Of a DNA stretch of 64,000 nt, positions 5,296 to 39,773 are shown in pieces. The notes beneath the pieces were generated by a model that saw only the letters and a program-made list of their open reading frames with translations, was not told the origin of the DNA and did no database searches. Both the position numbers and the translations under genes were made by a program. This DNA is from Nitrospiraceae bacterium. GTDB taxonomy: Bacteria; Nitrospirota; Nitrospiria; Nitrospirales; Nitrospiraceae. The first letter of the stretch is position 1. The number at the start of each line of letters is the position of its first letter. The stretch is from assembly GCA_019637075.1 (NCBI GenBank), contig JAHBWI010000004.1:248001-312000 (forward strand), read 5' to 3'.

Positions 5296-5326
5296 TCGCG
5301 TAAGCGATTCCTGTGAGGGAATGAAG

Positions 5327-5357: not shown

Positions 5358-5383
5358 GTTTGTCCGGCCTTGTTGCCTCCGAA

Positions 5384-8905: not shown

Positions 8906-8968
8906 GGCATGGCCTGAAGGCGTGAGGGAGTCTCCTGTTGCCTGGGACGGACGCGGGCGCGAGCCATA

Positions 8969-10522: not shown

Positions 10523-10570
10523 AGGTGACCGACTGGTGTTCCCTGGACGTATGAACCGAATTCAGGGGGC

Positions 10571-11284: not shown

Positions 11285-11492
11285 CGTGCCTCCCCAGTCT
11301 CGGCTCAGTTGCAGAGGGATTTCGAACGGAACTTCTCGAAATTCATAGACATTTTGGATGCCGGTCAGGCATTATTAACAGAAAGTACGAGGATGCGGCA
11401 AGGAGGCAGCGGCCTAGGGTGGTTTCCTCATGTGCGCAGGGTCCCACGAGACTATCGAAGAAATCCCCCAACCTCATAGAATCCAAGTGAAA

Positions 11493-11521
11493 TTGACTCG
11501 TTTTGAGCCCTCAATTAGAAT
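11493..11521 (+). promoter_or_regulatory. Sigma-70-type promoter for the alaC-hom-thrC-lysC-cimA operon
   Basis: TTGACT (11493-11498) and TAGAAT (11516-11521) are separated by exactly 17 bases. The predicted transcript starts near 11528 and reaches the AAGGAG ribosome site at about 11575 and ATG at 11592. The promoter lies in the 307-base gap between pdxJ and alaC. I could not settle on a convincing promoter for pdxJ in the rest of that gap. Confidence 0.7.
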
Positions 11522-11591
11522 ACGCCCTTTCATAAATACGGCTTTTACCTCAACCAGACGTATGACCCTTCCCTAAGGAGTCAGATATTTC

Positions 11592-12788: not shown

Positions 12789-14098
12789 AAAGTGAGATCG
12801 GAGTCGGGCTGATCGGGTTCGGGACGGTGGGGACGGGAGTTGCACGTATCCTGCTGGACAATGCCGCGCTCATCCGGCGGCGGGTGGGCATTCCCATCAA
12901 CCTCGTGCGGATTGCAGATCTGGATATCACGCGTGATCGCGGGGTGAAATTGGCCCCGGGGGTGCTCATCAACGACGCACAAGCTGTACTGGCCGATCCC
13001 AAGGTCGATATCGTGATCGAACTCATGGGCGGCTATGACGCCGCCAAGCGCGTGTTGCTCGATGCGATCGGCCGCGGGAAACAGGTGGTGACGGCGAACA
13101 AGGCATTGCTGGCGGTTCATGGTGAGGACATTTTTTCAGCTGCCTCGCGGCACGGAGTGGACGTCGGTTTTGAGGCCAGTGTCGGTGGCGGTATTCCGGT
13201 CATCCGGGCGCTGATGGAAGGTTTGGCGGCCAATAACATCCAATCCATCTATGGCATCATCAATGGGACGTCCAACTATATTCTCAGCCGCATGACGAGC
13301 GAAGGGCAGCGGTTCGAGGTCGTGCTGGAGGAGGCCAAGCGGGCCGGGTATGCCGAAGCGGACCCCACGTTTGATGTGGCCGGAACCGACAGCGCCCATA
13401 AGCTGACGATCATGGTGAGTCTGGCGTACGGCACGCCGGTGAATTTCAAGGATGTCTACACGGAAGGGATTACCGGTCTTACCCCGATCGATATCGCCTA
13501 CGCGAAAGAGTTTGGGTTCACCATTAAGCTGCTGGCCATCGCGAAATACGTGGAGGGAGAAATCGAAGCGCGGGTGCACCCCACCATGGTGCCGTCGGCG
13601 TCGCAGATTGCAAAGGTGGACGGCGTCTACAATGCGATTCAACTGGTGGGTGATGCGGTTGAAGACGTGGTGCTCTATGGTCGTGGCGCCGGGTCGATGC
13701 CGACCGGCAGTGCCGTCGTGAGTGATGTGATGGCTATCGCGCGCAATCTGATGAAGAATGCGACGGGCCGAGTTCCGCCGGCCTCGTATCAACAGGATCA
13801 GCGGCGGCCCCTGCGCATGCGTCCGATGGAGGAAATCACCTGTCTGTATTACATTCGGTTCATGGTACTGGACCGTCCCGGCGTGTTGTCTCAAATTGCC
13901 GGCGTCCTGGGCCGGTATGGCATCAGCATCTCGTCGGTGCTTCAGCAGGGGCGTAAAGAGGGGCAGACGGTGCCGGTGGTTATCATGACGCACATGGCCC
14001 GAGAGCGGGATGTGCAAAGCGCGCTTCGCGAGATCAATGGGATGCCGTATATTTCGGAGCCCACCACCCTGATTCGGGTCGAGGGGAAGGACGAATGA
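12785..14098 (+). CDS. hom: Homoserine dehydrogenase
   Basis: This enzyme reduces aspartate semialdehyde to homoserine with NAD(P)H, the branch point to threonine and methionine. The protein has 437 residues. The N-terminal Rossmann motif is [13 protein letters not shown]; the catalytic domain has [25 protein letters not shown] and [21 protein letters not shown]-terminal ACT domain (from about residue 355, [19 protein letters not shown]) suggests feedback control by an end product. It overlaps alaC by 4 bases and is followed by thrC after a 46-base gap. Confidence 0.98.
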
Positions 14099-24647: not shown

Positions 24648-25421
24648 ATGATGCCCTATGTGTTCGTGGCGCTGTTCGGCGCCGTCATCGGCAGCTTCCT
24701 GAACGTCTGTATCTACCGGATGCCTCGGGGCGAATCGGTGGCATGGCCGGGTTCGCACTGCCCTGCCTGCGGGCACGAAATCGCACCATACGACAATATC
24801 CCCGTCGTCAGCTACTTGGTGCTCCGGGGGCGCTGTCGTGCGTGCGGAATCGGAATCTCTCCGCAATATCCGCTGGTTGAAGCCGTCAATGCCCTCGGCT
24901 TCGTGCTGATGTTCTGGCTTTTCGGTTTCGGCCCGGCGGCCTTGGTCTACTCGCTATTCTTCTCCGCGCTGCTGGTCATTACGGGTACGGACCTGTCACA
25001 TCAGATCATCCCAGACGCGATCACCCTGCCGGGACTTGCGCTTGGTCTCCTGGCAGCATGGCTCATTCTCCCCCTCGGTCTCGTCGACGCAGTCCTTGGA
25101 GTCCTTGTTGGGGGAGGCCTCCTGTGGTTCCTCGCCTGGATCAGCCCCTATGTCTTTGGCAAGGAGGGGATGGGCGGAGGCGATATCAAGCTTATGGCGA
25201 TGGTTGGGGCTTTTCTCGGTTGGAAGCCCGTCTTGCTGGCGATCATGATCGGGGCGTTTTCCGGCTCCATCGTGGGTGTGGGGCTCATGGCAACCGGGCT
25301 CATGCGGAGGGAGCAGTATCTGCCGTTCGGTCCCTTTCTCGCATTCGGTTCGTTAGTGGCCCTTTTGTTTCATGAACCGCTCTTCACCTGGTACTGGTCC
25401 TTCATCGAGATTCCCCAATAG
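24648..25421 (+). CDS. pilD: Prepilin peptidase / N-methyltransferase
   Basis: PilD cuts the leader from type IV prepilins and methylates the new N terminus in the inner membrane. The 257-residue, multi-span protein has the four-cysteine cytoplasmic zinc loop (C38, C41, C63, C66: HCPACG and CRACGI), with catalytic aspartates in GTDLSHQIIPD and GGGDIKL. Start may be ATG 24648 or 24651. It stands immediately upstream of the first minor pilin set and is followed by an intrinsic terminator, so it may also serve other pilin loci. Confidence 0.96.
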   Translation: MMPYVFVALFGAVIGSFLNVCIYRMPRGESVAWPGSHCPACGHEIAPYDNIPVVSYLVLRGRCRACGIGISPQYPLVEAVNALGFVLMFWLFGFGPAALVYSLFFSALLVITGTDLSHQIIPDAITLPGLALGLLAAWLILPLGLVDAVLGVLVGGGLLWFLAWISPYVFGKEGMGGGDIKLMAMVGAFLGWKPVLLAIMIGAFSGSIVGVGLMATGLMRREQYLPFGPFLAFGSLVALLFHEPLFTWYWSFIEIPQ

Positions 25422-25713: not shown

Positions 25714-26148
25714 ATGAAGGAACGGGGCGGGAGTCTGATTGAAGTCTGTGCGGTATTGGGGCTGATCGGGACCCTGTGCGCCTTGGCGGTGCCGGGATGG
25801 GGCGCGCTGACGGCGCGTCATCACGGACGGGCGGTGGTCCGGGAATTGGCATCGGAACTGAGAATGGCTCGGCAGTTGGCCATGGCGCGCCATGAACGTG
25901 TGCGCGTGATCGTCAATGCCGAGCAGTCCAGCCTGAGAACCGAGTGCATCGAGTGCGGAGGAACGGCGTTGCGCTGGTACTACTTTGCTCAACGCGGTAC
26001 GGCGATTGAATCGATGTCGACTCGGGGGGAGATTGTCTTTCAGCCGAGCGGACGGTCCGCCACGCCTACGACGATCGTGCTCGTTGGGCCGCAGCAAGAG
26101 CGTCCGACCCTGACAGTCAGTCTGACAGGAAAGGTGACGGTGTCATGA
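25714..26148 (+). CDS. Minor pilin, FimT/GspH type (set 1)
   Basis: A 144-residue type IV-like prepilin. The leader is only MKERG; PilD would cut before GSLIEV, giving Gly instead of the usual Phe at +1 while keeping Glu at +5. The hydrophobic helix VCAVLGLIGTLCALAVPGW follows, then a soluble GspH-like domain with a CIEC pair. I chose ATG 25714, after GGGAGGCGTT, over an upstream in-frame start at 25678 that would give an atypical leader. It overlaps the PilV-like gene by 4 bases. Confidence 0.85.
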   Translation: MKERGGSLIEVCAVLGLIGTLCALAVPGWGALTARHHGRAVVRELASELRMARQLAMARHERVRVIVNAEQSSLRTECIECGGTALRWYYFAQRGTAIESMSTRGEIVFQPSGRSATPTTIVLVGPQQERPTLTVSLTGKVTVS

Positions 26149-26672
26149 GCAGGTGCGGCGTGCAAACGACGTGGTTGAGAACACTGTCTCACAACTCATC
26201 GGGATTCACCCTCGTGGAAAGCATGGTTGCCACATTGGTGCTCTCCGTTGGTCTCCTTGGTCTGTTGGCAATGTGTCAGTGGTCTGAGAGGGGGTTGCAG
26301 CATGGATTGCTTGCCACACGGGCGTTGGCCTTGATGGAGTCACGGCTGGAGGCGAAACGCCTTGGAGCGTGGGATCACCTGTTGCTGGATGACCTGGATC
26401 GAAACGGGTCGCTGGAATCACGGATGCATGACGACGGACTCTTAGGAGACGCCACAGCCGGTGACGGCGTATTCACAGGACAACTGATGGAGGGCGCCGT
26501 TCGATTGCAATGGACTGTAGAACTGAATCGACCGGCGGCTCCTGCCTCATCGAGCACCGCGTGGGTCGAAGTGCGCGCGTGGTTTCAGCCCGCCGGAGAC
26601 CATATGCGCGAGGTGCGGCTGCGAACGATGCGAGCCAATCCTCGGTTTGTCGGAGTTCAGGTGCCGTCATGA
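26145..26672 (+). CDS. Minor pilin, PilV/GspI type (set 1)
   Basis: A 175-residue prepilin with a 20-residue leader ending SSG and a mature start FTLVESMVATLVLSVGLLGLLAM, the PilV/GspI pattern with Glu at +5. The soluble domain includes LLDDLDRNGSL and a GDATAGDGVF segment. Both neighbours overlap it by 4 bases (ATGA), giving a tightly coupled fimT-pilV-pilW unit. It would be a subunit near the pilus tip. Confidence 0.87.
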   Translation: MSRCGVQTTWLRTLSHNSSGFTLVESMVATLVLSVGLLGLLAMCQWSERGLQHGLLATRALALMESRLEAKRLGAWDHLLLDDLDRNGSLESRMHDDGLLGDATAGDGVFTGQLMEGAVRLQWTVELNRPAAPASSSTAWVEVRAWFQPAGDHMREVRLRTMRANPRFVGVQVPS

Positions 26673-27445
26673 ACCAGCAGTGTGGGCGGGTACGGGGTCG
26701 ATCGTGCAGGTCGCAAGCATGGCGAGGGAGCGATGACTCGGGATTCAGTCTGATCGAATTGCTGTTTGCCGTGCTGATTTCGGGGATCGTCATGTCCTCG
26801 GCGATTCGAACGTTTGCCGTCTACGGGCATAGATTCTCGGCACAACAGACTGCGATGGAGTCGATGCAGGAGTTACGGCTGGCGTTGGATGTGTTGTGCG
26901 GGGAACTTCGCCTGGCGGGCGCCGGGCTTCTGACACGGGATGTCGCGTTTCTTCGAATGGATCGACAGGAGGTCGAGTTTCTCGCGAATCTCGCGTCATC
27001 GACGACCCAGATGACTGCAGATGCCTTGCCCGGACAGCGCGACCTCACTGTGGAGGAAGCCACGGGGTGGGGAAAGGGGAAGACGGTTGTGTTGTGCACA
27101 TTCGAGCGTTGCGGAGAGAATCGATTGGCCGCCGACGGTCGCAAGCACGAGATCACATTGGCCGCGCCTGTGACGGCATCGATTCCTGCGGGCAGCGGCC
27201 TGTTTCTGCTCAATCGAGTGCGCTACTACCTGAAGGTTGAAGAGGGCGGAACGTTTCGACTGATGCGGGACGTCGATGGTGGAGCCAGTACGCTCTTGGG
27301 CGGGATCACGCAATTTCGCTTGGACTATCTCACACGGCAAGGAACCGTGACAGCCGATCCTCGGGTAGCCGCGCATGTCCGCATTACGATGGGGGTTGGA
27401 GCGAATGGCCCGCTACTCACCCGAGATGTGGGTTTGCGAATCTGA
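26669..27445 (+). CDS. Minor pilin, PilW/GspJ type (set 1)
   Basis: A 258-residue prepilin. The leader ends SDDSG at residue 25; mature sequence begins FSLIELLFAVLISGIVMSSAIR with Glu at +5. The soluble part resembles PilW/GspJ in size and has a region LDVLCGELRLAGAGLL typical of PilW. ATG 26669 overlaps the PilV stop; the longer open frame upstream is only an extension into PilV. The downstream PilX-like start lies 22 bases after its stop. Confidence 0.87.
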   Translation: MNQQCGRVRGRSCRSQAWRGSDDSGFSLIELLFAVLISGIVMSSAIRTFAVYGHRFSAQQTAMESMQELRLALDVLCGELRLAGAGLLTRDVAFLRMDRQEVEFLANLASSTTQMTADALPGQRDLTVEEATGWGKGKTVVLCTFERCGENRLAADGRKHEITLAAPVTASIPAGSGLFLLNRVRYYLKVEEGGTFRLMRDVDGGASTLLGGITQFRLDYLTRQGTVTADPRVAAHVRITMGVGANGPLLTRDVGLRI

Positions 27446-27467
27446 CTCGGACAATATAGGAATGACG

Positions 27468-28949
27468 ATGAAAGCAAAAGACGAAGCGAATAAATCAAAC
27501 CGGCAGAGTGAACGTGGCATGGCGCTGTTGGCTGCACTCATGCTGTTGCTGATGCTCACGATCCTGGGAATGACCTCCATGCAGCTGGCGGGGCAGGAAA
27601 TCGCGGGTGTGAATGCGTTGCAGGAGGAGCGCGCGGCGCACCACGCTGCGGAATCGGCTGTCGATGCGGTGATGGGGTGGTTTCACGATCCCAGCCTCCC
27701 GCCTGAAGGAATCCCTCCTGGGTTTATGGCTAAGCGGGTGGTGAATGCGCAGGGAGAACCATCCTACTTTGATGCCCAAGGGCGGTCACAGTTCACGGGG
27801 ACGGCGAGTCGACCGGATGTCGTGTTCGACGCCGTCAATCCGCAACACGATCAGATGTTAAACGATCCCCGTACCGGATGGTTTCGCTCGCTCAAAGGGT
27901 TGGCGAAGATTCTCAAACTCCGCGTGTATGGGGCGATGCGACCGGGCTTGCTCTGCACGGTGGAGGTGACGGCGGGGGCGGGGCCAGGAGCGCGTGTGAA
28001 AAGAACGTTGTCGGTAGAGCTCGGAACCTATGCGATGCCGGCTCTGCGCGCTCCGTTGGAGGTTGCTTCGATGGGGTCTCCGTCCCCATCGGCGAAAGGT
28101 CTGGCTGTAACCCATTGGGGCGACATGCTGGTGCGTGGCTCGGCGTACTTTGGTGCAGTCGGCGACCTGCCCGGCAAGAGCATGTCCGCTTCAGTGACCG
28201 GACAGGCCTATGAATTGATGGTGCACCGGGAGGATCGGTGGCTCGATGTGTGGATCGGAGGAGAGGGGTACTTCTCGCAGATGCCATCGGGCAACGTCGC
28301 GGGCGTTCCGTCCAATCTGCATGTGCATCAGGAGCCGGAACCGGGGATCAAGGTTGATGACTGGAAGTATGATCGCTTGAAGCAAATGGCAAAGCAGTAC
28401 GGCCGCTACTATGCGATGGATCGCGATGGACTGTTGTATGCAGACGGCAACGTCCAGCCTGGGCTGGGGCACCGTCCTGCGGAGGTACTTGCTTCCACGG
28501 AGCCGGGAGATCATCTGGGACTCGTCTTCGTCGACACCCTGGACGGCCAGCCGCCGAGCGCGAATAACCTCGGAACTCTCGTCCTCGAACAAGACTACAT
28601 AGAAGGTATTCTTGTCTTGAACGCGCACGTTCGGTGGAAAGGCGGGCGAATGGGAAGGTCGGTGCCGGTTTTGAGTCCTCCCCCGGAGGGACAAACTGCG
28701 CTCGGGACACGAGTGCCGGTGCAACTGTCCAGTGTCCATCTGCAGGGTGTCCTGTACTCTGCCGGTGATGTGACCTATTCGGGTCGTGTGAACGTGTTCG
28801 GCGGTGTCATGGCTCAAGGCAACGTGTCTGCATCGGGAGGTGAATTGGGTCAGTTGGAGGTCTGGTACAACTACGAGCTGCGGGAAGGACTGGTGCGCGG
28901 TATGCCAGTGGTGTTTGTCTCGCCGGGTAGTTGGCAGGTCAGAGCCTAG
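27468..28949 (+). CDS. Large PilX/GspK-like minor pilin (set 1)
   Basis: A 493-residue prepilin-like protein, more than twice the size of the set-2 PilX (208). The leader ends RQSERG at residue 17 and the helix starts MALLAALMLLLMLTILGM; it lacks Glu at +5, as tip-capping PilX/GspK pilins often do. After about residue 200 there is a long beta-rich part, with LHVHQEPEPG, a GDHLGLVFVDTLDG segment and a repeat-like LQGVLYSAGDVTYSGRVNVFGGVMAQGN tail. The tail resembles the extra domain of some PilX proteins. I chose ATG 27468 because TAGGA is spaced 6 bases before it. Confidence 0.83.
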   Translation: MKAKDEANKSNRQSERGMALLAALMLLLMLTILGMTSMQLAGQEIAGVNALQEERAAHHAAESAVDAVMGWFHDPSLPPEGIPPGFMAKRVVNAQGEPSYFDAQGRSQFTGTASRPDVVFDAVNPQHDQMLNDPRTGWFRSLKGLAKILKLRVYGAMRPGLLCTVEVTAGAGPGARVKRTLSVELGTYAMPALRAPLEVASMGSPSPSAKGLAVTHWGDMLVRGSAYFGAVGDLPGKSMSASVTGQAYELMVHREDRWLDVWIGGEGYFSQMPSGNVAGVPSNLHVHQEPEPGIKVDDWKYDRLKQMAKQYGRYYAMDRDGLLYADGNVQPGLGHRPAEVLASTEPGDHLGLVFVDTLDGQPPSANNLGTLVLEQDYIEGILVLNAHVRWKGGRMGRSVPVLSPPPEGQTALGTRVPVQLSSVHLQGVLYSAGDVTYSGRVNVFGGVMAQGNVSASGGELGQLEVWYNYELREGLVRGMPVVFVSPGSWQVRA

Positions 28950-29022
28950 GGGGCGTTGACGGCACTGATGAAGATCGTACGTCGAACAGAACGGGAATTA
29001 TTTTGAGGAAAGGATCGCTGAC

Positions 29023-30825
29023 ATGAGTGCAGGTGTGATGGTGTCCGGGACCGACTCCAGGCCGACAAAAGCCGCCTTCCGTGCATCGAAAGTCGAGACG
29101 TCAAAACAAGCTTACGAGTTGCTCGTCGCGCGGGGATTGCTCCGAGCGGAAGAGCTCACATCGGCAATCTCGGAGGCGCGACGCAAGGGGTTGGATTTGG
29201 CGATCGTGCTCATGGATCGGTACCGTGTTCCGAAGGCGGCTCTTGGCGTCGTGCTGGCCGAATACTATGGCTGTCCTTTTGAGAGTTTTCACGAATCGAC
29301 AGTCATCGAACGGGATCTACTGAAACGGCTCAGCCTCGACTACCTCCGCAGGAGCCATTGGATTCCATTACGCCGGCAGGGTGGGGCCGTGGAGGTGCTG
29401 ATCGATGATCCGCATCATCTGGATAAACTGCAAGATGTGCGACGAGCCTTCCCCCAGCAGTCGGTCGCGTATCGGGTCGCACTGCGAAGGGATATTGAGC
29501 AGTTTGTGGCGGCAGTCTCCGGGCGCGATTCTGAATCGGCCATCACCGAGATCCTGGGCGAGCTGGTCAGCGAAGCCCAGTTGGAGGAGCAGCAGAATGC
29601 GACGATCGGATCGATCAGCGAGAACGACAGCGCGATCGTCAGACTCGCCAATCAAATCATCGCTGAGGCTTATCGCCAGGGCGCTTCGGATATCCACATC
29701 GAGCCCTATGCGGATCGAAAGGAAACGGCGGTTCGGTTTCGAGTGGATGGGGCCTGTTTTACGTATATGGCGATCCCGGCCGCCTATCGGCGGGCGATCG
29801 TGTCTCGAGTGAAGATCATGGCCAGCCTCGATATTGCCGAACGGCGTAAACCCCAGGACGGCAAGATTCGATTCAAGCTCAATACCGGCAATGAAATCGA
29901 GCTGCGGGTCGCCACGCTGCCGACTGCCGGTTACAACGAGGATGTGGTCGTGCGGCTGCTCAGCGCCGGCGGACCCCGGAGGCTGGATAACTTGGAATTC
30001 AATCCTCGCACCAGGCGCTCGATTGAGGAGTTGGCTCAGAAGCCGCACGGGATCATGCTGTGCGCCGGACCCACCGGATCGGGGAAGACGACCACGCTCC
30101 ACGCGATCTTGTCATCAATCAATACGGATGAGCGAAAAATTTGGACCGCCGAGGACCCGATTGAGATCACCCAGGATGGGTTGCGTCAGGTGCAAGTGCA
30201 TCCGAAAATCGGGCTGACATTTGCTACGACGATGCGGGCGTTTCTCCGGGCCGATCCCGACGTGATCATGATCGGGGAAATGCGGGACAAGGAAACGGCG
30301 GACATTGCAATCGAGGCTTCGCTGACCGGACACCTGGTGTTCAGTACCATTCACACGAACAGTGCCGTGGAGACCGTGGCGCGGCTGCTCGATCTCGGCT
30401 GCGATCCATTCAACTTTTCAGACGCCATGCTTGGCGTGCTGGCCATGCGACTCTGCAAACGCATTTGTCCGAACTGTCGGGAGGCCTATCACCCGACTCG
30501 CACGGAGTACGATGAGTTGGCGCAGGGATATGGCGAGGCAGCTTGGGAGGAACGGAACCTTGCATACTCAAGCGAATTCACTCTGTTTCGTGGCCGCGGC
30601 TGTGAAGTTTGCAATCAGTCTGGCTATCGAGGGCGTGTCCCCATTCACGAATTGATGGTCGGTTCAGGGCCCATGAGAAGTCTGATTCAAACCCGCGCCC
30701 GTACCACCGAACTTCTGCGCCAGGCCAAATCCGAAGGGATGAACACCTTGATTCAGGATGGTATCGACAAAGTTCTGCAGGGATTGACGACCTACAAACA
30801 GGTTCGAGCTGTAGCCGCCTACTAA
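29023..30825 (+). CDS. PilB/GspE-type assembly ATPase
   Basis: A 600-residue secretion/pilus assembly ATPase. The N-terminal MshEN-type domain spans about 25-160. The ATPase core has Walker A GPTGSGKTTT at about residue 349, the Asp box EDPIEI, Walker B IMIGEMRDKETA, and HTNSAVETVARL. A four-cysteine zinc motif (CKRICPNC and CEVC) lies between about residues 485 and 535, as in PilB/GspE. It follows set 1 after 73 bases. No pilC, pilT or pilM-Q genes are in the window, so the rest of the machine must be elsewhere. Confidence 0.93.
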   Translation: MSAGVMVSGTDSRPTKAAFRASKVETSKQAYELLVARGLLRAEELTSAISEARRKGLDLAIVLMDRYRVPKAALGVVLAEYYGCPFESFHESTVIERDLLKRLSLDYLRRSHWIPLRRQGGAVEVLIDDPHHLDKLQDVRRAFPQQSVAYRVALRRDIEQFVAAVSGRDSESAITEILGELVSEAQLEEQQNATIGSISENDSAIVRLANQIIAEAYRQGASDIHIEPYADRKETAVRFRVDGACFTYMAIPAAYRRAIVSRVKIMASLDIAERRKPQDGKIRFKLNTGNEIELRVATLPTAGYNEDVVVRLLSAGGPRRLDNLEFNPRTRRSIEELAQKPHGIMLCAGPTGSGKTTTLHAILSSINTDERKIWTAEDPIEITQDGLRQVQVHPKIGLTFATTMRAFLRADPDVIMIGEMRDKETADIAIEASLTGHLVFSTIHTNSAVETVARLLDLGCDPFNFSDAMLGVLAMRLCKRICPNCREAYHPTRTEYDELAQGYGEAAWEERNLAYSSEFTLFRGRGCEVCNQSGYRGRVPIHELMVGSGPMRSLIQTRARTTELLRQAKSEGMNTLIQDGIDKVLQGLTTYKQVRAVAAY

Positions 30826-30844
30826 GTCCCTCGAGGCTGTGGTT

Positions 30845-30870
30845 GCAGGGAGGGCATAGGCCCTCCCTGC
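30845..30870 (+). terminator. Strong hairpin after the ATPase gene
   Basis: A perfect 11-bp stem, GCAGGGAGGGC/GCCCTCCCTGC, closes on the 4-base loop ATAG. It lies 20 bases after the ATPase stop. It lacks a T run, so it may act as a transcript end protector or a Rho-independent terminator of reduced strength. It splits the pilus cluster into two blocks. Confidence 0.55.
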
Positions 30871-31003
30871 TGGCTCACCAGTAAACGATTTTCCTTAACT
30901 CGATTCCGTAGATCCTGTGCTTCCTCCCGCATGCGATCGTGCTCGGTCGCGCCTCTTTGTATGGCCACCAAGGGTATTTCCGGTACCGAAGCTGCCGAGA
31001 TTA

Positions 31004-31047
31004 GGCCGAAATTTGTCACCACTTTCGACCGGAATGGGCCGAAATTG
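31004..31047 (+). repeat. Direct repeat upstream of the second pilin set
   Basis: GGCCGAAATT occurs at 31004-31013 and 31037-31046, a spacing of 33 bases or about three helical turns. Both copies lie 75-115 bases before the FimT-like gene at 31120, inside a 294-base gap holding no other gene. They may be paired binding sites for a regulator, but no protein can be named. Confidence 0.4.
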
Positions 31048-31119
31048 TACTCGGGCAACAGACGGCGCAAATAGTGTTTTCAAGGAGTTGTGAAGGAAGC
31101 CACATAGGGTAACAACGGC

Positions 31120-31620
31120 ATGGCACTTGCTCACATCATTGTCGCCATGTGTGTGCAACCTCAAACGCAGGGGCTCTGTATTGTCCGAAACCGGGGTGGA
31201 TTTACCCTGGTTGAGGTCATGATCGTGTGCGCGATCATTGCCATTGTCACGATGCTATCCGTTCCCGCTTATATGCAGTGGACTGCTCGGTATGAACTGA
31301 GCCAAGGGACGACGGAGTTGGCCAACAACCTTTCGTTGGCGCGGATGGCTGCCAAGCATCGCAATGCGGCCGTTACCGTGAGTCTGTCACTGGTGTCGAG
31401 CCATGTAAGCGTCTCAACCGGAGGTGTGTTTCCCCCCGTGGTCCTGCCGCGGTCGATCGTGGCGTTTTCCGGCGGCCCAATCCAATTCTCTCCGCAAGGC
31501 ATGACGACGGCTGCGGCGAATCAGACCCTCACCCTCACGTCGAATCAGAACAAGGTGTACTCGGTGGTCGTGACGCCGGCGGGGAAGGTGAATTGGTGTC
31601 CGAAAGCCACCTGTCCGTAG
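31120..31620 (+). CDS. Minor pilin, FimT/GspH type (set 2)
   Basis: A 166-residue prepilin with a 27-residue leader ending NRGG and mature start FTLVEVMIVCAIIAIVTMLSVPAYMQW, Glu at +5. The soluble part has the GspH-like repeat AMAAKHRNAAVTVSL pattern (here RMAAKHRNAAVTVSL) and a C-terminal CPKATCP that may form a disulphide. The ribosome site is weak, so the start is less sure; ATG 31147 is an alternative. It opens the second pilin operon. Confidence 0.85.
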   Translation: MALAHIIVAMCVQPQTQGLCIVRNRGGFTLVEVMIVCAIIAIVTMLSVPAYMQWTARYELSQGTTELANNLSLARMAAKHRNAAVTVSLSLVSSHVSVSTGGVFPPVVLPRSIVAFSGGPIQFSPQGMTTAAANQTLTLTSNQNKVYSVVVTPAGKVNWCPKATCP

Positions 31621-31631
31621 GAGTATCGACA

Positions 31632-32153
31632 ATGTATCAGGCCTTGGAGCGCTTGCCCATAACGTGTCGTCGATCGCAGGAAGGATTCAGTCTCCTGGAG
31701 GCGATGGTGGCCGCTGGAATTCTGTCCGTGGGGCTCCTGGGGCTCGCTGGTCTGCAAGGGATGTCGATCGGCAAGAATGTCGATGCGAATGAAATTACCC
31801 GTGTGACCAATCTTGCGGCCGATATGGCGGAGCGTATTCAGAACAATCGCCAGCGGGCGTTGGACTACAACGGAATCGATACTTCGGTGGCCTGCGCGCA
31901 GAGTGCGTCAACTCAAGCGATGGCATTGGGAGACTGCACTCAATGGCGGACCTTGCTGGCCAATTCCGCACTCGGTAGCGTTCGAGGCATCGTCACGGCG
32001 GCGCGGATCGATCCTGACCCCGCCACCAATCCTGTGACCATGAACCGCATTGCGATCACGATTCGCATCAGCTGGCAGAATGGCGCACGAAGTGAGACGA
32101 GTGTCTCGCGTCCGAAGTCGGTTACCTTCAACAGCGTCATCGCACCGGAGTAG
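31632..32153 (+). CDS. Minor pilin, PilV type (set 2)
   Basis: A 173-residue prepilin. The leader ends RRSQEG at residue 18 and the mature N terminus is FSLLEAMVAAGILSVGLLGLAGLQ, typical of PilV. The next segment, NLAADMAERIQNNRQRALDYNGID, also matches the PilV family pattern. ATG 31632 follows TAGGAGTATCGAC. It has two cysteines, in VACAQSA and GDCTQW, likely a disulphide. The PilW-like gene begins 3 bases after its stop. Confidence 0.9.
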   Translation: MYQALERLPITCRRSQEGFSLLEAMVAAGILSVGLLGLAGLQGMSIGKNVDANEITRVTNLAADMAERIQNNRQRALDYNGIDTSVACAQSASTQAMALGDCTQWRTLLANSALGSVRGIVTAARIDPDPATNPVTMNRIAITIRISWQNGARSETSVSRPKSVTFNSVIAPE

Positions 32154-32156
32154 CCC

Positions 32157-33281
32157 ATGAAACGACCAACCAGCAGGACCGAAACTCGACTGATCGGGCA
32201 ACGGGGATTTACCGTCGTCGAGATGATGGTGGCTGTCGGTGTGACGGCGGTGATTGTCGCCGCCGCGATGACGACGGTGGTCAATACCAATCGGGCGAAT
32301 ATCGCGAACAGTCAGATTGCGGATACGCAGCAGAATGTGCGACTCGCAACGGAGATCATCGGTCGAGACATCAAGTTGGCAGGTTTCAATTATAGTCCGA
32401 CCGACCCTGCAACGGCATCGATCGCCGGTTGCACGACGACTGTCGGCTCGATAGCAAAGCCTGTCAGCCTTCGTCCTCAGGATCAAAATTCCGGGGGCGC
32501 AGATACCGGGCCGGATAGTCTTTCTTTGGTGGTTCCCGTGCTGAACACCACCGGCTGGACTTTGTCGGCTGCCGCAGGTGGTACGCAGAATGCCCCTGCC
32601 CCCTACAATTCCATTTCTCTCTCTGCCGCGGCCGTCACGCAAATGGTAGCCCAAGGGCTTGCGATTGGTTCCACGGTTTCAATCGGCGGTGCCGTGTCTA
32701 AGACGGTGGCTAGCGTGGGCGCAACCTCGATCGGATTCGGCGCAGGCAACTTTGTCGATGCGCGATTCCCGGCCGGTACCCCTGTGTACTTGCTGCAGTG
32801 CGTGCAGTACCAGGTGATCTCCAACAACGTGCCGACCTGCGGGAGCACGAGACCGTGTCTCGTTCGTAACGGGGTGCCGATCGTGGATGGAGTCGAAGAC
32901 CTACAGATCACCTACGCGTGCGACGGCTGCAATACCACGGCGCCCAACCCCGCTCTGCCTGACGGTGTCGTCGACAATCAGGATGGCTCAACCAGTTCGG
33001 GGCAACCGAGCTTTACCCAAGGGGATTTCGTATCGAACAACACCTGGGCGATCACCCCCTGGACGCCCGATAAGATCAAGCTTGCCCAGCTGAGCATCGT
33101 CGCCATTCAGCCGAAGGCGGAACAGGGAACAAACGAGAAGGGAACCATCGCCGCGAATAGTTCGACGCCTGCAGTCGTAGGAGACCACGACCCTGCGACG
33201 AGTCCGGGATATAGCGCGCCTGCGTATCAGCAGCAGCGCCGGCGGGTGTTGGTTCGCACGATCCAGCCTAGGAATCTCTAG
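32157..33281 (+). CDS. Minor pilin, PilW type (set 2)
   Basis: A 374-residue prepilin, larger than the set-1 PilW (258). The leader ends IGQRG and the helix is FTVVEMMVAVGVTAVIVAAAMTTV with Glu at +5. The soluble domain includes IIGRDIKLAGFNYSP, the PilW signature region, and several cysteine pairs (CVQYQ, CGSTRPC, CDGC). It ends QQQRRRVLVRTIQPRNL. The gene is tightly packed between PilV and PilX. Confidence 0.9.
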   Translation: MKRPTSRTETRLIGQRGFTVVEMMVAVGVTAVIVAAAMTTVVNTNRANIANSQIADTQQNVRLATEIIGRDIKLAGFNYSPTDPATASIAGCTTTVGSIAKPVSLRPQDQNSGGADTGPDSLSLVVPVLNTTGWTLSAAAGGTQNAPAPYNSISLSAAAVTQMVAQGLAIGSTVSIGGAVSKTVASVGATSIGFGAGNFVDARFPAGTPVYLLQCVQYQVISNNVPTCGSTRPCLVRNGVPIVDGVEDLQITYACDGCNTTAPNPALPDGVVDNQDGSTSSGQPSFTQGDFVSNNTWAITPWTPDKIKLAQLSIVAIQPKAEQGTNEKGTIAANSSTPAVVGDHDPATSPGYSAPAYQQQRRRVLVRTIQPRNL

Positions 33282-33296
33282 ATAGGGGCGTGATGT

Positions 33297-33923
33297 ATGG
33301 GGACGTTGCGTTGTCAGTCTAGTCAAGGTAGCCGGTCACCGGCCGGTTTCCGAAACGACCGGGGCATTGCCATGTTAACGGTCATGCTCTTGTTATTGAT
33401 TCTAACCGTGTTGGGTATCGCCGCCGTCACGGTGACCGGGTTGGAAAACCGAATGGCCGGCTTCTTCCGAACTGGCGAGGCCGTCACGGCTGCGGCCGAT
33501 TCATGCGAGGGGACGGCGGCAAACATCATTCAACAAACACTGACACCTCCGGGGACGCTGCCTGCTGCCTTCTTGAGCACGGCGGCTCCTCCGGGACCGG
33601 TTCCGGTGGCGAATGGACCCACGCTGTATGCCGAAATCTATGGATACAATTTGCCTTCTCCTCCGGCAGCGGCGAACACGCCGGCGGAAAATTACAGTGA
33701 CAGTGCCAACACCGCTCCGAATTTCACGCTGGTGAACATGCCGGGGTTCACGGTCAACGGCGACATCGATTTGCTCTACAAACACAACAAACCAGGGACG
33801 CCGGTGGTTGAGCATGTCTACCGCATCACCTGCATGGCCAGCAATGCGGCGACCGGGGCGAACAGCACCGTCACGTCTGTCTACGCGTGCACCCAGAATG
33901 AAACCTGCGTCAAGAAATTCTAG
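33297..33923 (+). CDS. Minor pilin, PilX type (set 2)
   Basis: A 208-residue PilX-type prepilin of usual size. Leader ends FRNDRG at residue 23; the helix IAMLTVMLLLLILTVLGIAAVTVTGLENRMA lacks Glu at +5 and carries the NRMAG-like sequence typical of PilX. Four C-terminal cysteines (ITCMAS, VYACTQNETC) may form disulphides. It lies 15 bases after PilW and 10 bases before the small exported protein. Confidence 0.9.
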   Translation: MGTLRCQSSQGSRSPAGFRNDRGIAMLTVMLLLLILTVLGIAAVTVTGLENRMAGFFRTGEAVTAAADSCEGTAANIIQQTLTPPGTLPAAFLSTAAPPGPVPVANGPTLYAEIYGYNLPSPPAAANTPAENYSDSANTAPNFTLVNMPGFTVNGDIDLLYKHNKPGTPVVEHVYRITCMASNAATGANSTVTSVYACTQNETCVKKF

Positions 33924-33933
33924 GAGGTGGAGT

Positions 33934-34254
33934 ATGACTGCACGGAGCACATTCATTCTCCTGGCGATGAGCTTGATGTTGTGTGCATCGGGACCGTTGG
34001 GCTCTATGGGATTTGCACAAGAAACCATCAAACTGCCGTTTCCGACCGTCGGATTCCAGTCCGGGTCGGTTGACGAGGTTCACGGCTCTTCGATTCGTAT
34101 CGACGGGAGAACCTACACCATGAAATCGGACGTGATCGTGGTGGATCACAAGGGGCGCGAGTTGCAGCTGGAACGCATCATTCCCACGTCGATGGCCAAG
34201 TTTCATTTGAAGGAGGGCCACATCGATAAGATGGTGGTCACGCTTCCGCAATAG
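33934..34254 (+). CDS. Small exported protein between pilX and pilY1
   Basis: The 106-residue protein has a signal peptide (MTARSTFILLAMSLMLCASG..., probable cut after GFAQ near residue 30). The mature part is a compact beta-rich domain: SVDEVHGSSIRIDGRTYTMKSDVIVVDHKGRELQLERI. I do not recognise a named family, though the pattern recalls small proteins next to pilY1 in other pilus operons. Start is ATG 33934, after TAGGAGGTGG. A role in tip assembly or PilY1 folding is suggested only by position. Confidence 0.82.
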   Translation: MTARSTFILLAMSLMLCASGPLGSMGFAQETIKLPFPTVGFQSGSVDEVHGSSIRIDGRTYTMKSDVIVVDHKGRELQLERIIPTSMAKFHLKEGHIDKMVVTLPQ

Positions 34255-34329: not shown

Positions 34330-37300
34330 ATGAAACGACACACCATCACTGCCCTGACCCTGGCGATCACGAGCGGACTTGGTGTGCTGCTGAGCGCGGG
34401 GGAGAGCCGCGCCGTGAGCAATGCCGATTATACGGCGACGCCGCCGTTCGTTTCGAACGCGACGACCCCGAACATCATCATCATCATGGACAACTCCGGC
34501 AGTATGAGCAACCTGGGCAATTGCGACGGCACCGATGACGGCGACTGTGTGGATTTTTCAGGTTCTTCAATCGATAAAGCTTTTACGAACACGACCAACT
34601 GGGGTGGGTACTTTAACAGCCTTACTTGCTATACCTACGACACGACCGACACGCGGTTTGAACCCGCCTCCTCCAAAGCGACACTCGCCGATCTCTGTCC
34701 CGATACGCAATGGGACGGCAATTTTCTGAATTGGGCGACGCTTCGCAGGTTTGATGCGGTCAAGAAGGCGATGAGCGGGGGAGATTGTATTGTGACCAGA
34801 GCGGCGGATGGAACCTGTCCGGCCAACGGGACGCCGGCCTTGAAGACCGTCACAGCTCAGGGGACCGGCGTGAATACGCAGGCAGCATCGGTCAGATACA
34901 ACGCTGGAACCGGCGCCAATACGTATGTCGGCCGGATCCCGCTCGCGGATCGGTCGGGCAACAAGGACCCAATCTACATCCATACCGACGCGGCCTATTT
35001 CTGTGTCGATGACGACAACAGCTTCAACAGCAATTGTGGCGACTCTTACAGCGTGAGAAAGTATCTGCTGAAAATCGGGTATGCATCGGAACCGACCGGC
35101 GTGATTCAGCAGATCGGTTCGAAGGCCCGATTCGGGCTCATGGAGTTTAAGTCTTCTTCGGTAGGCGCGCGGATGCTGGTAGGTGTCGGCGCTCGGCAAT
35201 CGATCGACTGGTCGGGCACGGTCGTCGAAACGTTCAATACCAACACAGCTGCGATGGTTGATGCGGTTGGGGAGTCATATCCCTATACCTGGACGCCGTT
35301 GAGCGAATCGCTCTATGAAACGGCTCGCTACGTCGCGCAAATCAATTCCACCTATTCGAGCACGTCATATGTCTATCCGATCGCCTTTGCAGGCGGTATT
35401 TCAAACGGCGTCAACTTTGCCACGAGCGGGGTCGGTTCCATCGGAACGAGTGAGATTACGGCATTAGGGGCCTCGGAATCCTGTCCATCCGGCTATATCA
35501 GCAACGCCTGCGGGCGAGATCCATATTTTTATGGCCAGAACCATACGCCTGCCTGGTCCAGCACTTCGCAATTGGTTAACTGCTGCAAGACCTTCGTCAT
35601 CATCTTCACCGACGGAGAACCGACGCAGGACCAGAACATTCCTGCGGCGATGCAGGACTATGCGCACGCCCGTCACGGCGTACATTGCACGGGAAGCGAC
35701 AACGGTGTCCCCTCCCGACCCATCGACGGGACTTGCAACACCAACGCAGCGACTCCGTTCAGTGACCTGCTCGCGGAACACAAGACCGACTATGCCAGCA
35801 GCGGCAGCCACTTCCTCGACGATGTGGCCTACTGGGCTCACACGAACGACCTTCGTCCCTGCAATGGTAGTGCGGACGGCACCATCAACGTGTTGGCAGT
35901 GACCGGTCACTGTTTGCCCGGGACACAGAATCTGACCGTCTACACCTTCTTCGCATTCGGCAATATGAATGGGCGAGGCATTCTTTCCCAGACCGCTCGG
36001 TTGGGTGCATTCGAGGATTCGAACGGTGACGGCATTCCCCAGACTAGCGAATGGGATAAGGAGAACAACTATTCCGGAGCGGCCACCCCGGACGGCATTC
36101 CCGACGCGTATTTTGAGTCTTCCAATGTCGACGATCTTCAGGACAAGCTGCTTGCCACGATTGCCAGCATTCTTCGGCGCAGTTCGTCCGGTTCATCGGT
36201 CTCGGTGCTGGCGACGGCCAATACGGGTGAAGGAGCGTTGTATCAGTCATATTTCTATCCGAGCACGATCGAACCCTCGACCCTGAGCGACATCCGATGG
36301 ACCGGTTATACCCAGTCGCTCTTTATCGACACCTTCGGCAACACGCGCGAAGACACCGATCAGGACGGCAAGCTGAACTACGTGCGCGATTTGATCGTCA
36401 AGACCCGTTTTGACAGCGTGGCGAATCAGGTCAAAGTGGACAAGTATATCGATACGAACGGAGACGGGTTGCCCGATGATCGTACCGGAGATGGATTGGT
36501 CACGTCGGCCGACTGTTACGTCTGCGGTCAAACACTGGCGGACATCGTCCCCCTGTGGGAAGCGGGGAAACAGTTGGCACTCAAGGACGCGGCCACACGT
36601 AGCATCTACACGTGGGTGGATTCCGACCATGACGGGATCGTCGATTCGGGTGAGCAAATCTCCTTCGATACCGCCAACGAGGCGACTCTGCGCCCGTACT
36701 TGCGTGCAGCGACAAGCGCGGATGGGACCAAGATCATCAACTTCGTTCGGGGCTGCGACCCCTCGTCCTGTGCGGAGCAGGCGGCGACGAGAGATCGACG
36801 GTTGCAGGTTCCCCCGACCAGTGGGACGCTGAAGGTCTGGAAACTGGGCGATATCATTCACTCTACCCCGACCGTCGTCGCGTCGCCGAAAGATCGCTAT
36901 GACGCCGTGTATGGCGATGAATCTTACTCAGCGTTCTTGCAGCACTACTACAACAGGCGCCAAGTTGCCTACGTGGGCGGGAACGATGGGATGCTGCATG
37001 CATTCAACGCAGGCTTCTACCATCCCGGCGATGACTCCTCGACCACAGGAACCAACAGGGTCGAGCACGGGTATTTCACGCGAACAGCGACCGACAACTC
37101 CGGCGGGCCGGTGCTGGGTGAGGAATTGTGGGGGTTCATCCCGTATCAGCTGCTGCCTCAATTGGAATGGCTCACTCGGGCTGACTATCAGCACACGTAT
37201 TATGTCGATTTGCCGATCAAGGTCGCCGATGTCAGGATCTTCGCCGCGGATACGGACCATCCCAATGGCTGGGGAACGATTCTCATCGGCGGGTTCAGAA

Positions 37301-38745
37301 TGGGTGGCAGTTGCGGGGCCTGTACCTCGGGGACCGGCGCACCGCCTATGGTGGTAAACATCGGCGGTACCAACTATACGTTCTACAGCGCGTACTTTGT
37401 CCTGGATATTACGAATCCGGAGGTTGCTCCGAAGCTCTTGTGGTCGTTCAGTGCCTCGAACCTCGGTCTGACCACCAGCGTCCCGGCCGTGGTGCGGGTC
37501 AATCCCAGCGGGGATGCCGTGGCGAGCAATGCGAACGCCAAGTGGATGTTGGTCGTCGGGTCAGGACCGACCGCCTACGATGCCACCGTGACGCAAACCT
37601 CGAATCTGTTCGTGATCAATCTCGCGTCTGGACCCGGGAGCAACAATAGTTTGGTGACGACTCTGCCGGTCGGAAGCTTCAACTCATACATCGGTGACAT
37701 GACGGCCTTCGACAAAAACCTGGATTACCGTCACGATGCCGTCTACTTCGGTCGCGTGATCAATGATGGATCGCTGCCCTGGAGGGGTAAGATCTATCGC
37801 CTGACTTTGGGTAAGAATCCGTCGACCGCAGCGTTTGGGACGTCCACGGATCCGGCTCAGTGGGGTATTGCCTCAGGAGGCAACCGAGTACCGACGGAGC
37901 TCCTGGATACCTTTGCGTCGGGGGCCGAAATGGGACCTGTGGCTGCTGCTCCTGCCGTCACGGTGGATGATGCCGCCAACGTCTGGGTATTTGCCGGCAG
38001 CGGCCGATACTACAGCGCGGCGGATAAGACCGACATGTCGACCCAGTACTTCGTGGGGCTCAAGGATTCCGTTCTGAACACGGGCTGTGACCAGACAGTC
38101 AGCATCATCAATTGCTGGACCAATGATTTGGTGGATATGTCGAACGTGACGGTATGTATGGTCGGCGTCGGTGACTGTGGTCAGTCGACGGGCACCAAGC
38201 AAGTCACCGGTCTGTCCGGAACCAATACCTTTACGGACCTGATCGGCGCGGTCAAGGCCAAGGATGGGTGGTACACGAAGATGTTGGAACCGGCCAGCCT
38301 GCCGACCTATCCGTCACCGTATGGGATCGGTGAGCGAGTCGTGAATAGTCCGACGGTCTTCGGCGGCATCGTGTTTTTCCCAAGCTTTATCCCGACGAAC
38401 AATGTCTGCTCCTCGTCGGGCACCAGCCGGTTGTGGGCGCTGTTTTACAAGACCGGAAGCGCCTATCAGGAGCCGATCATCGGCACATCGGCCTCCGGGA
38501 CCAACAAGAATGTCAACCGGTATGGCTCCCTTGGGGATGGGTTGGCGTTCGGCATCGTGGTGCATATCGGATCAGGTCGAGATGGGGGAAGCCCCTTTGG
38601 ACTCCTGATCAACATGAGCCAGGGTAATTTCGGTGATTGTCCCACCTGCAACCCTGGAGGGAGCGGCGGGCCGATCAGTTCGAACATCGGGGCGAACGTC
38701 GCTATTGATCCCCGCAGTCGATACTTCTCATGGATGAACATGTAA
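34330..38745 (+). CDS. pilY1: PilY1-like pilus tip adhesin
   Basis: A 1,471-residue exported protein (signal peptide to about residue 28). A von Willebrand A domain opens with the metal-ion site DNSGS at 54-58 in IIIIMDNSGSMS. Calcium-loop-like segments occur in the middle: DSNGDGIPQTSEWD, DTDQDGKLNYVRD, DTNGDGLPDDRTGD and DSDHDGIVDSGEQ. The C-terminal half is the PilY1 beta-propeller domain, with YVGGNDGMLHAFNAGF as a family signature. ATG 34330 follows GAGGAGGAG; an in-frame start at 34303 is less likely. PilY1 binds calcium and works at the pilus tip in adhesion, surface sensing and twitching. It is the largest gene of the window. Confidence 0.95.
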   Translation: MKRHTITALTLAITSGLGVLLSAGESRAVSNADYTATPPFVSNATTPNIIIIMDNSGSMSNLGNCDGTDDGDCVDFSGSSIDKAFTNTTNWGGYFNSLTCYTYDTTDTRFEPASSKATLADLCPDTQWDGNFLNWATLRRFDAVKKAMSGGDCIVTRAADGTCPANGTPALKTVTAQGTGVNTQAASVRYNAGTGANTYVGRIPLADRSGNKDPIYIHTDAAYFCVDDDNSFNSNCGDSYSVRKYLLKIGYASEPTGVIQQIGSKARFGLMEFKSSSVGARMLVGVGARQSIDWSGTVVETFNTNTAAMVDAVGESYPYTWTPLSESLYETARYVAQINSTYSSTSYVYPIAFAGGISNGVNFATSGVGSIGTSEITALGASESCPSGYISNACGRDPYFYGQNHTPAWSSTSQLVNCCKTFVIIFTDGEPTQDQNIPAAMQDYAHARHGVHCTGSDNGVPSRPIDGTCNTNAATPFSDLLAEHKTDYASSGSHFLDDVAYWAHTNDLRPCNGSADGTINVLAVTGHCLPGTQNLTVYTFFAFGNMNGRGILSQTARLGAFEDSNGDGIPQTSEWDKENNYSGAATPDGIPDAYFESSNVDDLQDKLLATIASILRRSSSGSSVSVLATANTGEGALYQSYFYPSTIEPSTLSDIRWTGYTQSLFIDTFGNTREDTDQDGKLNYVRDLIVKTRFDSVANQVKVDKYIDTNGDGLPDDRTGDGLVTSADCYVCGQTLADIVPLWEAGKQLALKDAATRSIYTWVDSDHDGIVDSGEQISFDTANEATLRPYLRAATSADGTKIINFVRGCDPSSCAEQAATRDRRLQVPPTSGTLKVWKLGDIIHSTPTVVASPKDRYDAVYGDESYSAFLQHYYNRRQVAYVGGNDGMLHAFNAGFYHPGDDSSTTGTNRVEHGYFTRTATDNSGGPVLGEELWGFIPYQLLPQLEWLTRADYQHTYYVDLPIKVADVRIFAADTDHPNGWGTILIGGFRMGGSCGACTSGTGAPPMVVNIGGTNYTFYSAYFVLDITNPEVAPKLLWSFSASNLGLTTSVPAVVRVNPSGDAVASNANAKWMLVVGSGPTAYDATVTQTSNLFVINLASGPGSNNSLVTTLPVGSFNSYIGDMTAFDKNLDYRHDAVYFGRVINDGSLPWRGKIYRLTLGKNPSTAAFGTSTDPAQWGIASGGNRVPTELLDTFASGAEMGPVAAAPAVTVDDAANVWVFAGSGRYYSAADKTDMSTQYFVGLKDSVLNTGCDQTVSIINCWTNDLVDMSNVTVCMVGVGDCGQSTGTKQVTGLSGTNTFTDLIGAVKAKDGWYTKMLEPASLPTYPSPYGIGERVVNSPTVFGGIVFFPSFIPTNNVCSSSGTSRLWALFYKTGSAYQEPIIGTSASGTNKNVNRYGSLGDGLAFGIVVHIGSGRDGGSPFGLLINMSQGNFGDCPTCNPGGSGGPISSNIGANVAIDPRSRYFSWMNM

Positions 38746-39773
38746 TGCAGATCGGCCTTGGCAATTCGGTGGAAAAGGCGGGGAGAGCGTTTCTCCCCGC
38801 CCAGCCCTCCATGCAGATGGGAGCCCTCTTGTGGAGCTTGGGAATCGCGCTCCTGTCCGGCTGTTCTTCCAGCGGCTCCCAGGACGACGTCACAAAAGGT
38901 GCGAATGTCTTGAACAACCAGCCGCCGGTTGTTCGCAAAGTCACCCTTGTCCCCACTCCCCTGACATTGGCTGGTCCGCTAGCCGTACAGATTGATGTCC
39001 ACGACCCGGACGGACAGCAACTCACGACGCGTGTCCAGTGGATTGTGAACGGCGCGCCGGTCACGGGCGTGAACGGTCCCGAACTGCGTCCGGACCTCGT
39101 CAAACGCGGAGATATGGTGGCGGTTGAAGTCGTGGCATCCGATGGTGAAGCCGAAAGTGTGCCGTTCAGAACGGAGCCCGTCCAGGTGGTGAATACCCCG
39201 CCGATTCTGACCCGAGTCATGATAGAAGCCGACGGTCCTCAGGGGAGCAATCGTGTCCAGGCGAAAGTCGATGCGGCCGACCCCGACCGCGATGAAATTC
39301 AATACACTTACCAATGGTGGCATAACGACAAGCAGGTAACGGAAGGGACAGAGAACGCGTTGGATACGACGGGCTATGGACGAAAGGATATCGTCGGCGT
39401 CGAGGTGATCGCTCGAGACCAGGAAAGTGCGTCATTGGCCATGCGGGCTACGCCCATCGTGCTCGGCAATTCTCCTCCCGAAATCACGTCCAACCCCGCC
39501 GTATTGAACAATCGCGAGCAATATGACTATGCGGTGCAGGTGAAGGACATTGACGGAGACCCGATCACATTTGCCCTTGAAACCGCTCCTCCGGGCATGT
39601 CCATCGACAAGACGAGCGGCCAAGTCACGTGGAAGGTGACGCCGGGCCTTACCGGCACGCATCGGGTAAAGATCGTGGCAGAGGACGGTCAAGGGGGATC
39701 GACATGGCAAGAGTTCGAGGTCACGATACCGTCGACGGCTCAGACCGCGACACAGTCGTCACCCCAAGGCTGA
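38745..39773 (+). CDS. Ig/cadherin-like lipoprotein after pilY1
   Basis: The start overlaps the pilY1 stop (TAATG). From ATG 38745 it has 342 residues; ATG 38811 is a possible shorter start. A lipobox LLSGC at about residues 36-40 predicts lipidation. Three beta-sandwich repeats follow: two with PPxxxxVxxxP-type starts and DPDGQQL/DPDRDEI acidic loops, and a third like a dystroglycan-type cadherin domain (DIDGDPITFALETAPPGMSID...GQVTW). It is probably an outer-membrane or periplasmic partner of the pilus tip complex, a role inferred from the coupling to pilY1. Confidence 0.85.
   Translation: MQIGLGNSVEKAGRAFLPAQPSMQMGALLWSLGIALLSGCSSSGSQDDVTKGANVLNNQPPVVRKVTLVPTPLTLAGPLAVQIDVHDPDGQQLTTRVQWIVNGAPVTGVNGPELRPDLVKRGDMVAVEVVASDGEAESVPFRTEPVQVVNTPPILTRVMIEADGPQGSNRVQAKVDAADPDRDEIQYTYQWWHNDKQVTEGTENALDTTGYGRKDIVGVEVIARDQESASLAMRATPIVLGNSPPEITSNPAVLNNREQYDYAVQVKDIDGDPITFALETAPPGMSIDKTSGQVTWKVTPGLTGTHRVKIVAEDGQGGSTWQEFEVTIPSTAQTATQSSPQG

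Follow-up and report, generated by a model that had tools for sequence, protein, structure and literature searches.

Tandem minor-pilin sets beside one type IVa pilus machine in Nitrospiraceae: a predicted ComZ-like module and a PilY1 module

Why a bacterium should carry two complete sets of minor pilins side by side, with a motor gene between them, is the question raised by a locus of a Nitrospiraceae bacterium that lies in a window of 64,000 nucleotides, namely positions 248001-312000 of contig C4 in a genome of 4.06 Mb and 22 contigs. Here the gene order FimT-PilV-PilW-PilX, which corresponds to the GspH-I-J-K order, occurs twice, as set 1 and set 2; a gene for the extension ATPase PilB separates the two sets, and pilY1 (PF05567) lies directly downstream of set 2. 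The best explanation, held with about even confidence, is a single, dispersed type IVa machine with two tip modules, whereby set 1 provides an alternative tip for DNA uptake and set 2 a priming and adhesive tip with PilY1. What the analysis shows is the gene content, conservation, synteny, a single insertion of PilB, the independence of set 1 from a locus resembling a type II secretion system (T2SS), and the predicted fold of the set-1 PilX (PilX1), which is like that of ComZ of Thermus.

Gene content and divergence of the two sets

All eight pilin genes, together with those for PilD, PilB and PilY1, are open and intact reading frames (Table 1), and the pilins carry class III signal peptides. 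The first-pass annotation had described two complete sets around PilB, with pilY1 accompanying the second set only and a PilX of 493 residues in the first. Each of these points holds, the PilY1 frame lying just past the right border of the region then annotated. No pilY1 is found between PilX1 and PilB in the window, and set 1 is thus a PilY1-less variant of the type IVa minor-pilin module, whereas set 2 with PilY1 is the usual priming and adhesive tip. The genes of set 1 are tightly spaced, PilB follows PilX1 after 73 nucleotides, and a gap of about 294 nucleotides precedes set 2. Matches to sigma-54 sites upstream of the sets are no commoner than chance would give, and scans for sigma-70 promoters and terminators gave nothing informative.

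When the eight pilin families were compared as profiles, the best partner of each was the same pilin type in the other set. FimT1 matched FimT2 at E ~1e-26 over 136 columns, PilW1 matched PilW2 at E ~1e-15, PilV1 matched PilV2 at E ~1e-12, and PilX1 matched PilX2 at E ~1e-8, the last match being limited to the N-terminal 62 columns. The H-I-J-K order is therefore truly repeated, and not by chance. In joint trees of FimT, PilV and PilW, the set-1 and set-2 members are split by one branch, with support of 79, 89 and 90, respectively, in the Shimodaira-Hasegawa-like approximate likelihood ratio test (SH-aLRT), the only support measure in these and all other trees, which are 'quick' runs. Because the set labels were assigned by best profile match, the joint trees argue against recent duplication or conversion and fall short of proving a single ancient duplication. 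Recent duplication is rejected on the trees and profile comparisons together, and the sets, judged from their sequences, are anciently diverged.

Conservation was assessed across relatives, many of which, beyond the named contigs, are draft assemblies. Some 30 Nitrospira contigs share, as far as they extend, the syntenic block SurE-DedA-CysS-RlmB-PilD-set1-PilB-set2-PilY1-Ig-PhoH. PilX1 is present in 37 of 61 relatives, full-length homologues extend to several other families of the same class, and its mean column identity is 54% across 50 sequences. Close pairs of set-1 genes have ratios of nonsynonymous to synonymous substitution rates (dN/dS) of 0.07-0.28; for set 2 most values lie at 0.03-0.27, and one divergent pair gives two higher ones, 0.51 and 0.69. 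By these measures neither set is degraded, and purifying selection acts on both. It could be supposed that set 1 is a decaying duplicate, since a single in-frame stop interrupts PilX1 in G015, G016 and G023, three among the initial 37 genomes, and in G384 of the phylum sample, yet the dozens of intact copies, the column identity, the low dN/dS and the homologues in other families make this scarcely credible, and dN/dS and conservation rule out a pseudogene set for the family. In G023, which has kept a damaged PilX1, no set 2, full PilB or ComEC was found, a pattern that fits the expectation of set 1 decaying along with the pilus.

PilX1 and PilY1 tend strongly to occur together: among 61 genomes, 33 have both, four only PilX1, three only PilY1 and 21 neither (Fisher p 1.5e-9, in genomes that are related and not independent, some exceptions perhaps being due to contig ends). 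Elsewhere in the class, the order of the sets is reversed in one locus from another family, and in two loci set 1 stands without a recognised set 2 downstream. Distant Nitrospirota possess a single set (L213:5160-10638; L214:5891-11265; a block on the minus strand of L215, at 4993-9735 of its reverse complement), in which a giant PilW of ~1050-1260 residues is followed by a PilX1-like pilin of 530-585 residues.

The fold of PilX1 and its likeness to ComZ

The AlphaFold (AF2) model of PilX1, with a predicted local distance difference test (pLDDT) of 86.7, has an extended helix at the N-terminus and numerous beta-strands, which fold matches resolve into a predicted pilin domain (strands at 138-179) and a predicted beta-solenoid (~188-460), with a last strand at ~481-484; this strand order is consistent with a ComZ-type pilin. 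Position +5 is Ala, K-type pilins being without Glu at this position. In a Foldseek search of the PDB, the top three matches were chains of ComZ (6qvi; E 2.4e-7 to 8.4e-7, probability 1.00), and the next match, which is unrelated, reached only E 5e-3. Re-alignment with ComZ gave a Z score of 10.0 over 311 residues, covering both pilin and solenoid. PilX1 is thus predicted to be a GspK-like pilin with a ComZ-like beta-solenoid. The two domains of ComZ are related to GspK and to the ice-binding protein FfIBP; ComZ binds DNA through two lysines (K98 and K233) and binds PilA2, and mutants of Thermus thermophilus in pilA1-3 and comZ lose competence and retain pili (PMC6561018). In PilX1, the basic positions K80, R248 and K296 (numbered on the first row of the 50-sequence alignment) are fully conserved. 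Going by the PilX1 model, the most likely role of set 1 is that of an alternative tip dedicated to capturing and taking up DNA. PilX2, at 208 residues, is too short for a beta-solenoid, and the earlier suggestion of two tips with different likely tasks gains support from the contrast between the predicted solenoid of PilX1 and the PilY1 of set 2.

The remaining pilins of set 1 bear on this assignment as well. A Foldseek search with the PilV1 model (pLDDT 85) returned no significant match, and the re-ranked alignments place it near GspI/XcpV (Z 7.2-7.6) and PilA2 of Thermus (6qvf; Z 6.5). PilV1 also has a conserved acidic loop, DDLDxDGxxE...DDGxxxDxxAGDGxYT, which exceeds the cut-off of NF041940 (choice_anch_X) and resembles an insertion that binds metal, set into a pilin of the GspI type. 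FimT1 matches FimU (4ipu) at E 2.5e-4 over positions 33-143. The Gly at +1 noted at first reading is indeed there in the window, but it is no oddity: position +1, which follows the PilD cleavage site, is unusually variable throughout the FimT1 family (G, K, W, V, H, R or F, with Lys and Trp frequent), and this is therefore a family trait.

Several observations weigh against a DNA-receptor tip. The C-terminus of FimT1 is GRVS, or GKVTVS in the window, and has no GRxR motif of the kind by which gammaproteobacterial FimT binds DNA; PilX1 is mildly acidic overall, with an isoelectric point of ~6; and ComEC is also frequent in relatives that have no set 1. The template modelling scores (TM-scores) between PilX1 and ComZ are low (0.24), probably because the two domains are placed differently relative to each other. 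A profile search of PDB sequences with PilX1, taken up to E 10, did not return ComZ, so that the two proteins may share descent or may have converged on a pilin-plus-solenoid architecture. DUF7305 was considered as a possible link from PilX1 to ComZ at the sequence level and set aside, the matches being weak: it was hit in two of 50 PilX1 sequences and, among 14 control genomes, in Thermus composti alone, below the cut-off and in a gene that may or may not be comZ. Finally, other beta-solenoids match the same domain of PilX1, which makes adhesion possible: the solenoid by itself aligns with ice-binding proteins, including FfIBP (4nu2), at Z ~11, and more weakly with tapirin adhesin domains (Z 5.2-5.9). 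Set 1 might accordingly be an alternative tip of the same pilus in which PilX1 is an adhesin for a surface, a polysaccharide or another cell and not a DNA receptor, and the acidity of the protein would suit such a role. This is an unlikely alternative that deserves serious attention, as ComZ is the sole high-ranking match that spans both pilin and solenoid, the partner PilV1 resembles PilA2 and GspI, and the order and sizes of the set-1 genes parallel the competence operon of Thermus.

The intervening PilB and the rest of the pilus machine

The nearest named relatives of the window's PilB come from Nitrospira genomes, with up to 80% identity, and the window genome is itself a Nitrospira. In eight relatives, other genera included, set 2 follows set 1 without PilB; the same is true of five genomes of the sister family, and seven loci from other families of the class likewise have double sets and no PilB. 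In the tree of PilX1, the presence of PilB between the sets takes one change and defines one of the two sides of a branch supported at 98; it is the derived state when the tree is rooted on the sister family. In the PilB tree, the PilBs that lack a GAF domain form, Desulfobacterota-type outgroups excepted, one clade (support 99) nested among the family's GAF-domain PilBs, two rows of this clade being called GAF from length alone. The two trees indicate that, most likely, a single event placed the GAF-less PilB between the sets, as a later duplicate of a GAF-domain PilB in one Nitrospiraceae clade. All 16 relatives that have the inserted PilB also keep another, whose open frame of 774-846 residues has the length of the GAF type, and in the window genome the second PilB, with an N-terminal GAF domain, stands solitary at 867k of contig C1. 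By this comparison of sequences, the inserted PilB most likely supplements the older motor and does not replace it. The uninterrupted row of eight pilin genes, which outgroups and early-branching relatives have, is the ancestral layout as read from these comparisons, and the splitting by an ATPase is secondary.

The eight-gene row followed by PilY1, together with the co-occurrence of PilX1 and PilY1, could be taken to mean that all eight minor pilins enter one composite tip, with sets 1 and 2 at successive positions beneath PilY1. Such a composite is improbable. Each set is complete in H-I-J-K with its own K-type pilin, and K-type pilins such as GspK and ComZ are proposed to cap the tip, so that two caps would be hard to stack; moreover, there are loci that show set 1 without a recognised downstream set 2, and G023 kept its damaged set 1 after the loss of set 2.

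In one relative (L162, from G031; 9432-13058 of the reverse complement), unrelated genes, one of them DedA-like, stand in place of PilB between the two sets, so that the row of eight pilins seems to have been broken a second time, independently. At Desulfobacterota-type loci with related PilBs, no set-1-like pilins adjoin the gene, and weak set-2-like matches occur in one locus alone. Many Nitrospira possess an additional GAF-less PilB paralogue remote from pilin genes (L059:9968-11719; L183:6573-8336), and a small open reading frame that adjoins it appears PilZ-like by eye.

The genome has one pilus-type PilC, adjoining PilS and PilR on contig C3, and PilM with one PilQ-type secretin on contig C8; one PilT/PilU pair and three PilA-like pilins are on contig C2. 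PilN, PilO and PilP were not assigned individually. Since there is a single pilus-type PilC and a single PilQ-type secretin, one pilus platform and one secretin are available to both sets, in keeping with a sharing of PilD, as had been anticipated, and of the rest of the machine. The tight spacing of set 1, the proximity of PilB to PilX1, the wider gap before set 2 and the retention of a second PilB elsewhere would also suit a physically separate set-1 pilus driven by the PilB of its own block, but the many relatives with both sets and no PilB at this place, and the lone PilC and PilQ-type secretin, make this quite improbable. ComEC is present in the window genome and in 52 of 61 relatives, so an inner-membrane channel for DNA is available.

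Besides the PilQ-type secretin, the genome has a separate T2SS-like locus at 112-122k of contig C1 (L027:3158-12419) with GspD, GspF, GspE and two GspG-like pilins, in which no GspH-K pilins were recognised; its GspD has a repeat-like N-terminal extension. Set 1, with its H-I-J-K order and GspK-type PilX, could in principle supply the missing minor pseudopilins. However, set 1 occurs in eight near-complete genomes that lack a GspD of this type, this GspD occurs in three genomes that lack set 1, and set 1 adjoins PilD and is usually accompanied by pilY1. A role of set 1 in the T2SS-like locus is thus very improbable, and its identity as a T2SS pseudopilus is rejected on co-occurrence. The proposal that a doubling next to one ATPase is the sign of a separate kind of pilus or pseudopilus is not supported, PilB being a single later insertion and set 1 being independent of the T2SS-like locus; the claim of two complete sets withstands both the pseudogene and the T2SS comparisons.

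Table 1. Features of the conserved pilin block, in window coordinates
Feature	Position	Strand	Evidence
PilD prepilin peptidase	24648..25421	+	PF06750 E 5.5e-37, PF01478 E 2.1e-22; syntenic in relatives
Set 1 FimT1 (GspH/FimU-type minor pilin, 144 aa)	25714..26148	+	PF12019 E 6.8e-9; profile match to FimU 4ipu
Set 1 PilV1 (GspI/PilA2-type minor pilin, 175 aa)	26145..26672	+	N_methyl; predicted fold
Set 1 PilW1 (GspJ-type minor pilin, 258 aa)	26669..27445	+	N_methyl; profile match to PilW2 (P 98.5, ~196 columns)
Set 1 PilX1 (GspK/PilX-type, predicted beta-solenoid, 493 aa)	27468..28949	+	PilX_N in 22/50 members; model
PilB extension ATPase (non-GAF paralogue)	29023..30825	+	T2SSE E 3.4e-123, MshEN E 1.6e-13
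Set 2 FimT2	31120..31620	+	N_methyl and GspH
Set 2 PilV2	31632..32153	+	TIGR02523 type_IV_pilV, 54.3 bits (cut-off 52.2)
Set 2 PilW2	32157..33281	+	PF16074 PilW E 2.3e-6, over gathering score
Set 2 PilX2 (208 aa)	33297..33923	+	PF14341 PilX_N E 4.6e-6, over gathering score
Small, secreted-looking protein between PilX2 and PilY1	33934..34254	+	Syntenic homologues in many relatives; no Pfam match
PilY1 tip adhesin/priming factor, set 2	34330..38745	+	PF05567 E 5.1e-9, residues 839-1247
Putative lipoprotein with Ig-like domains, last gene of conserved block	38730..39773	+	PF05345, PF17963; syntenic

Two tips on one machine, and comparison with known systems

If one type IVa machine does carry two tip modules, PilD would mature the pilins of both sets, and a filament would be primed either by PilX1-PilW1-PilV1-FimT1 or by PilX2-PilW2-PilV2-FimT2 with PilY1. 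PilA would then be added beneath the tip through PilC and PilMNOPQ, and retraction by PilT/PilU would pull in bound DNA, to be passed to ComEC, or the attached surface. Tip position, alternation of the two tips, DNA binding and the choice of motor are all inferred in such a scheme, in which the inserted PilB might furnish set 1 with an extra motor under different regulation. A bolder version, whereby an exchangeable DNA-receptor tip of the ComZ type exists beside the PilY1 tip and, in the Nitrospira clade, the GAF-less PilB selects or powers the DNA-uptake tip, so coupling the choice of tip to that of motor, is a rather doubtful extension.

The tandem offers a direct test of how a single pilus machine can support adhesion as well as DNA uptake, a question still open. 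Tandem ComZ-like and PilY1 modules with a single PilC and secretin predict natural competence in Nitrospira; they suggest that ComZ-like solenoid pilins, as judged from the model, may not be peculiar to Thermus; and they illustrate that a PilB amid minor pilins can be a late arrival and not the mark of a separate system. Two things appear to be new: the conservation across the class of a ComZ-like set next to a PilY1 set, and the evidence that PilB came to lie between them only later. In the literature searched here, no paper joining Nitrospira, type IV pili and PilY1 was found; papers on Nitrospira and ComZ did not, by title and abstract, concern pilins; and no report of natural competence in Nitrospira was found, the sole match concerning Legionella secretion.

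Pseudomonas-type operons have the order fimU-pilV-pilW-pilX-pilY1, which is the order of set 2 with its PilY1; set 2 differs in the small extra gene before PilY1, the Ig-like gene after it and the tandem arrangement with set 1. The GspH-I-J-K tip of the T2SS shares with set 1 the homotypic order and, in PilV1, a predicted fold near GspI, whereas set 1 is linked to pilus genes and independent of the T2SS-like locus. Several minor-pilin sets on one machine are known in Myxococcus xanthus (Treuner-Lange et al. 2020, PMC7541494), and multiple versions of minor pilins have been reported in Geobacter (PMC3543383). Clusters 1-3 of M. xanthus resemble the present locus in providing more than one FimU-PilV-PilW-PilX set for a single type IVa machine, but each of those clusters has its own PilY1, whereas set 1 here has no PilY1 and a PilX with a predicted solenoid, and the sets stand in tandem.

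The closest parallel to set 1 is the pilA1-pilA2-pilA3-comZ locus of Thermus (Salleh et al. 2019, PMC6561018), which has the same H-I-J-K-style order and products of 156-193-233-554 residues, compared with 144-175-258-493 in set 1. Both have a GspI-like second pilin and a GspK-like last pilin with a large solenoid related to FfIBP, as predicted for PilX1 from its model. The two systems differ in that the profile search of PDB sequences, up to E 10, detects no similarity of PilX1 to ComZ, in that DNA binding, documented for ComZ, is putative for PilX1, and in that set 1 is followed by a PilY1-type set, one clade having a PilB there as well.

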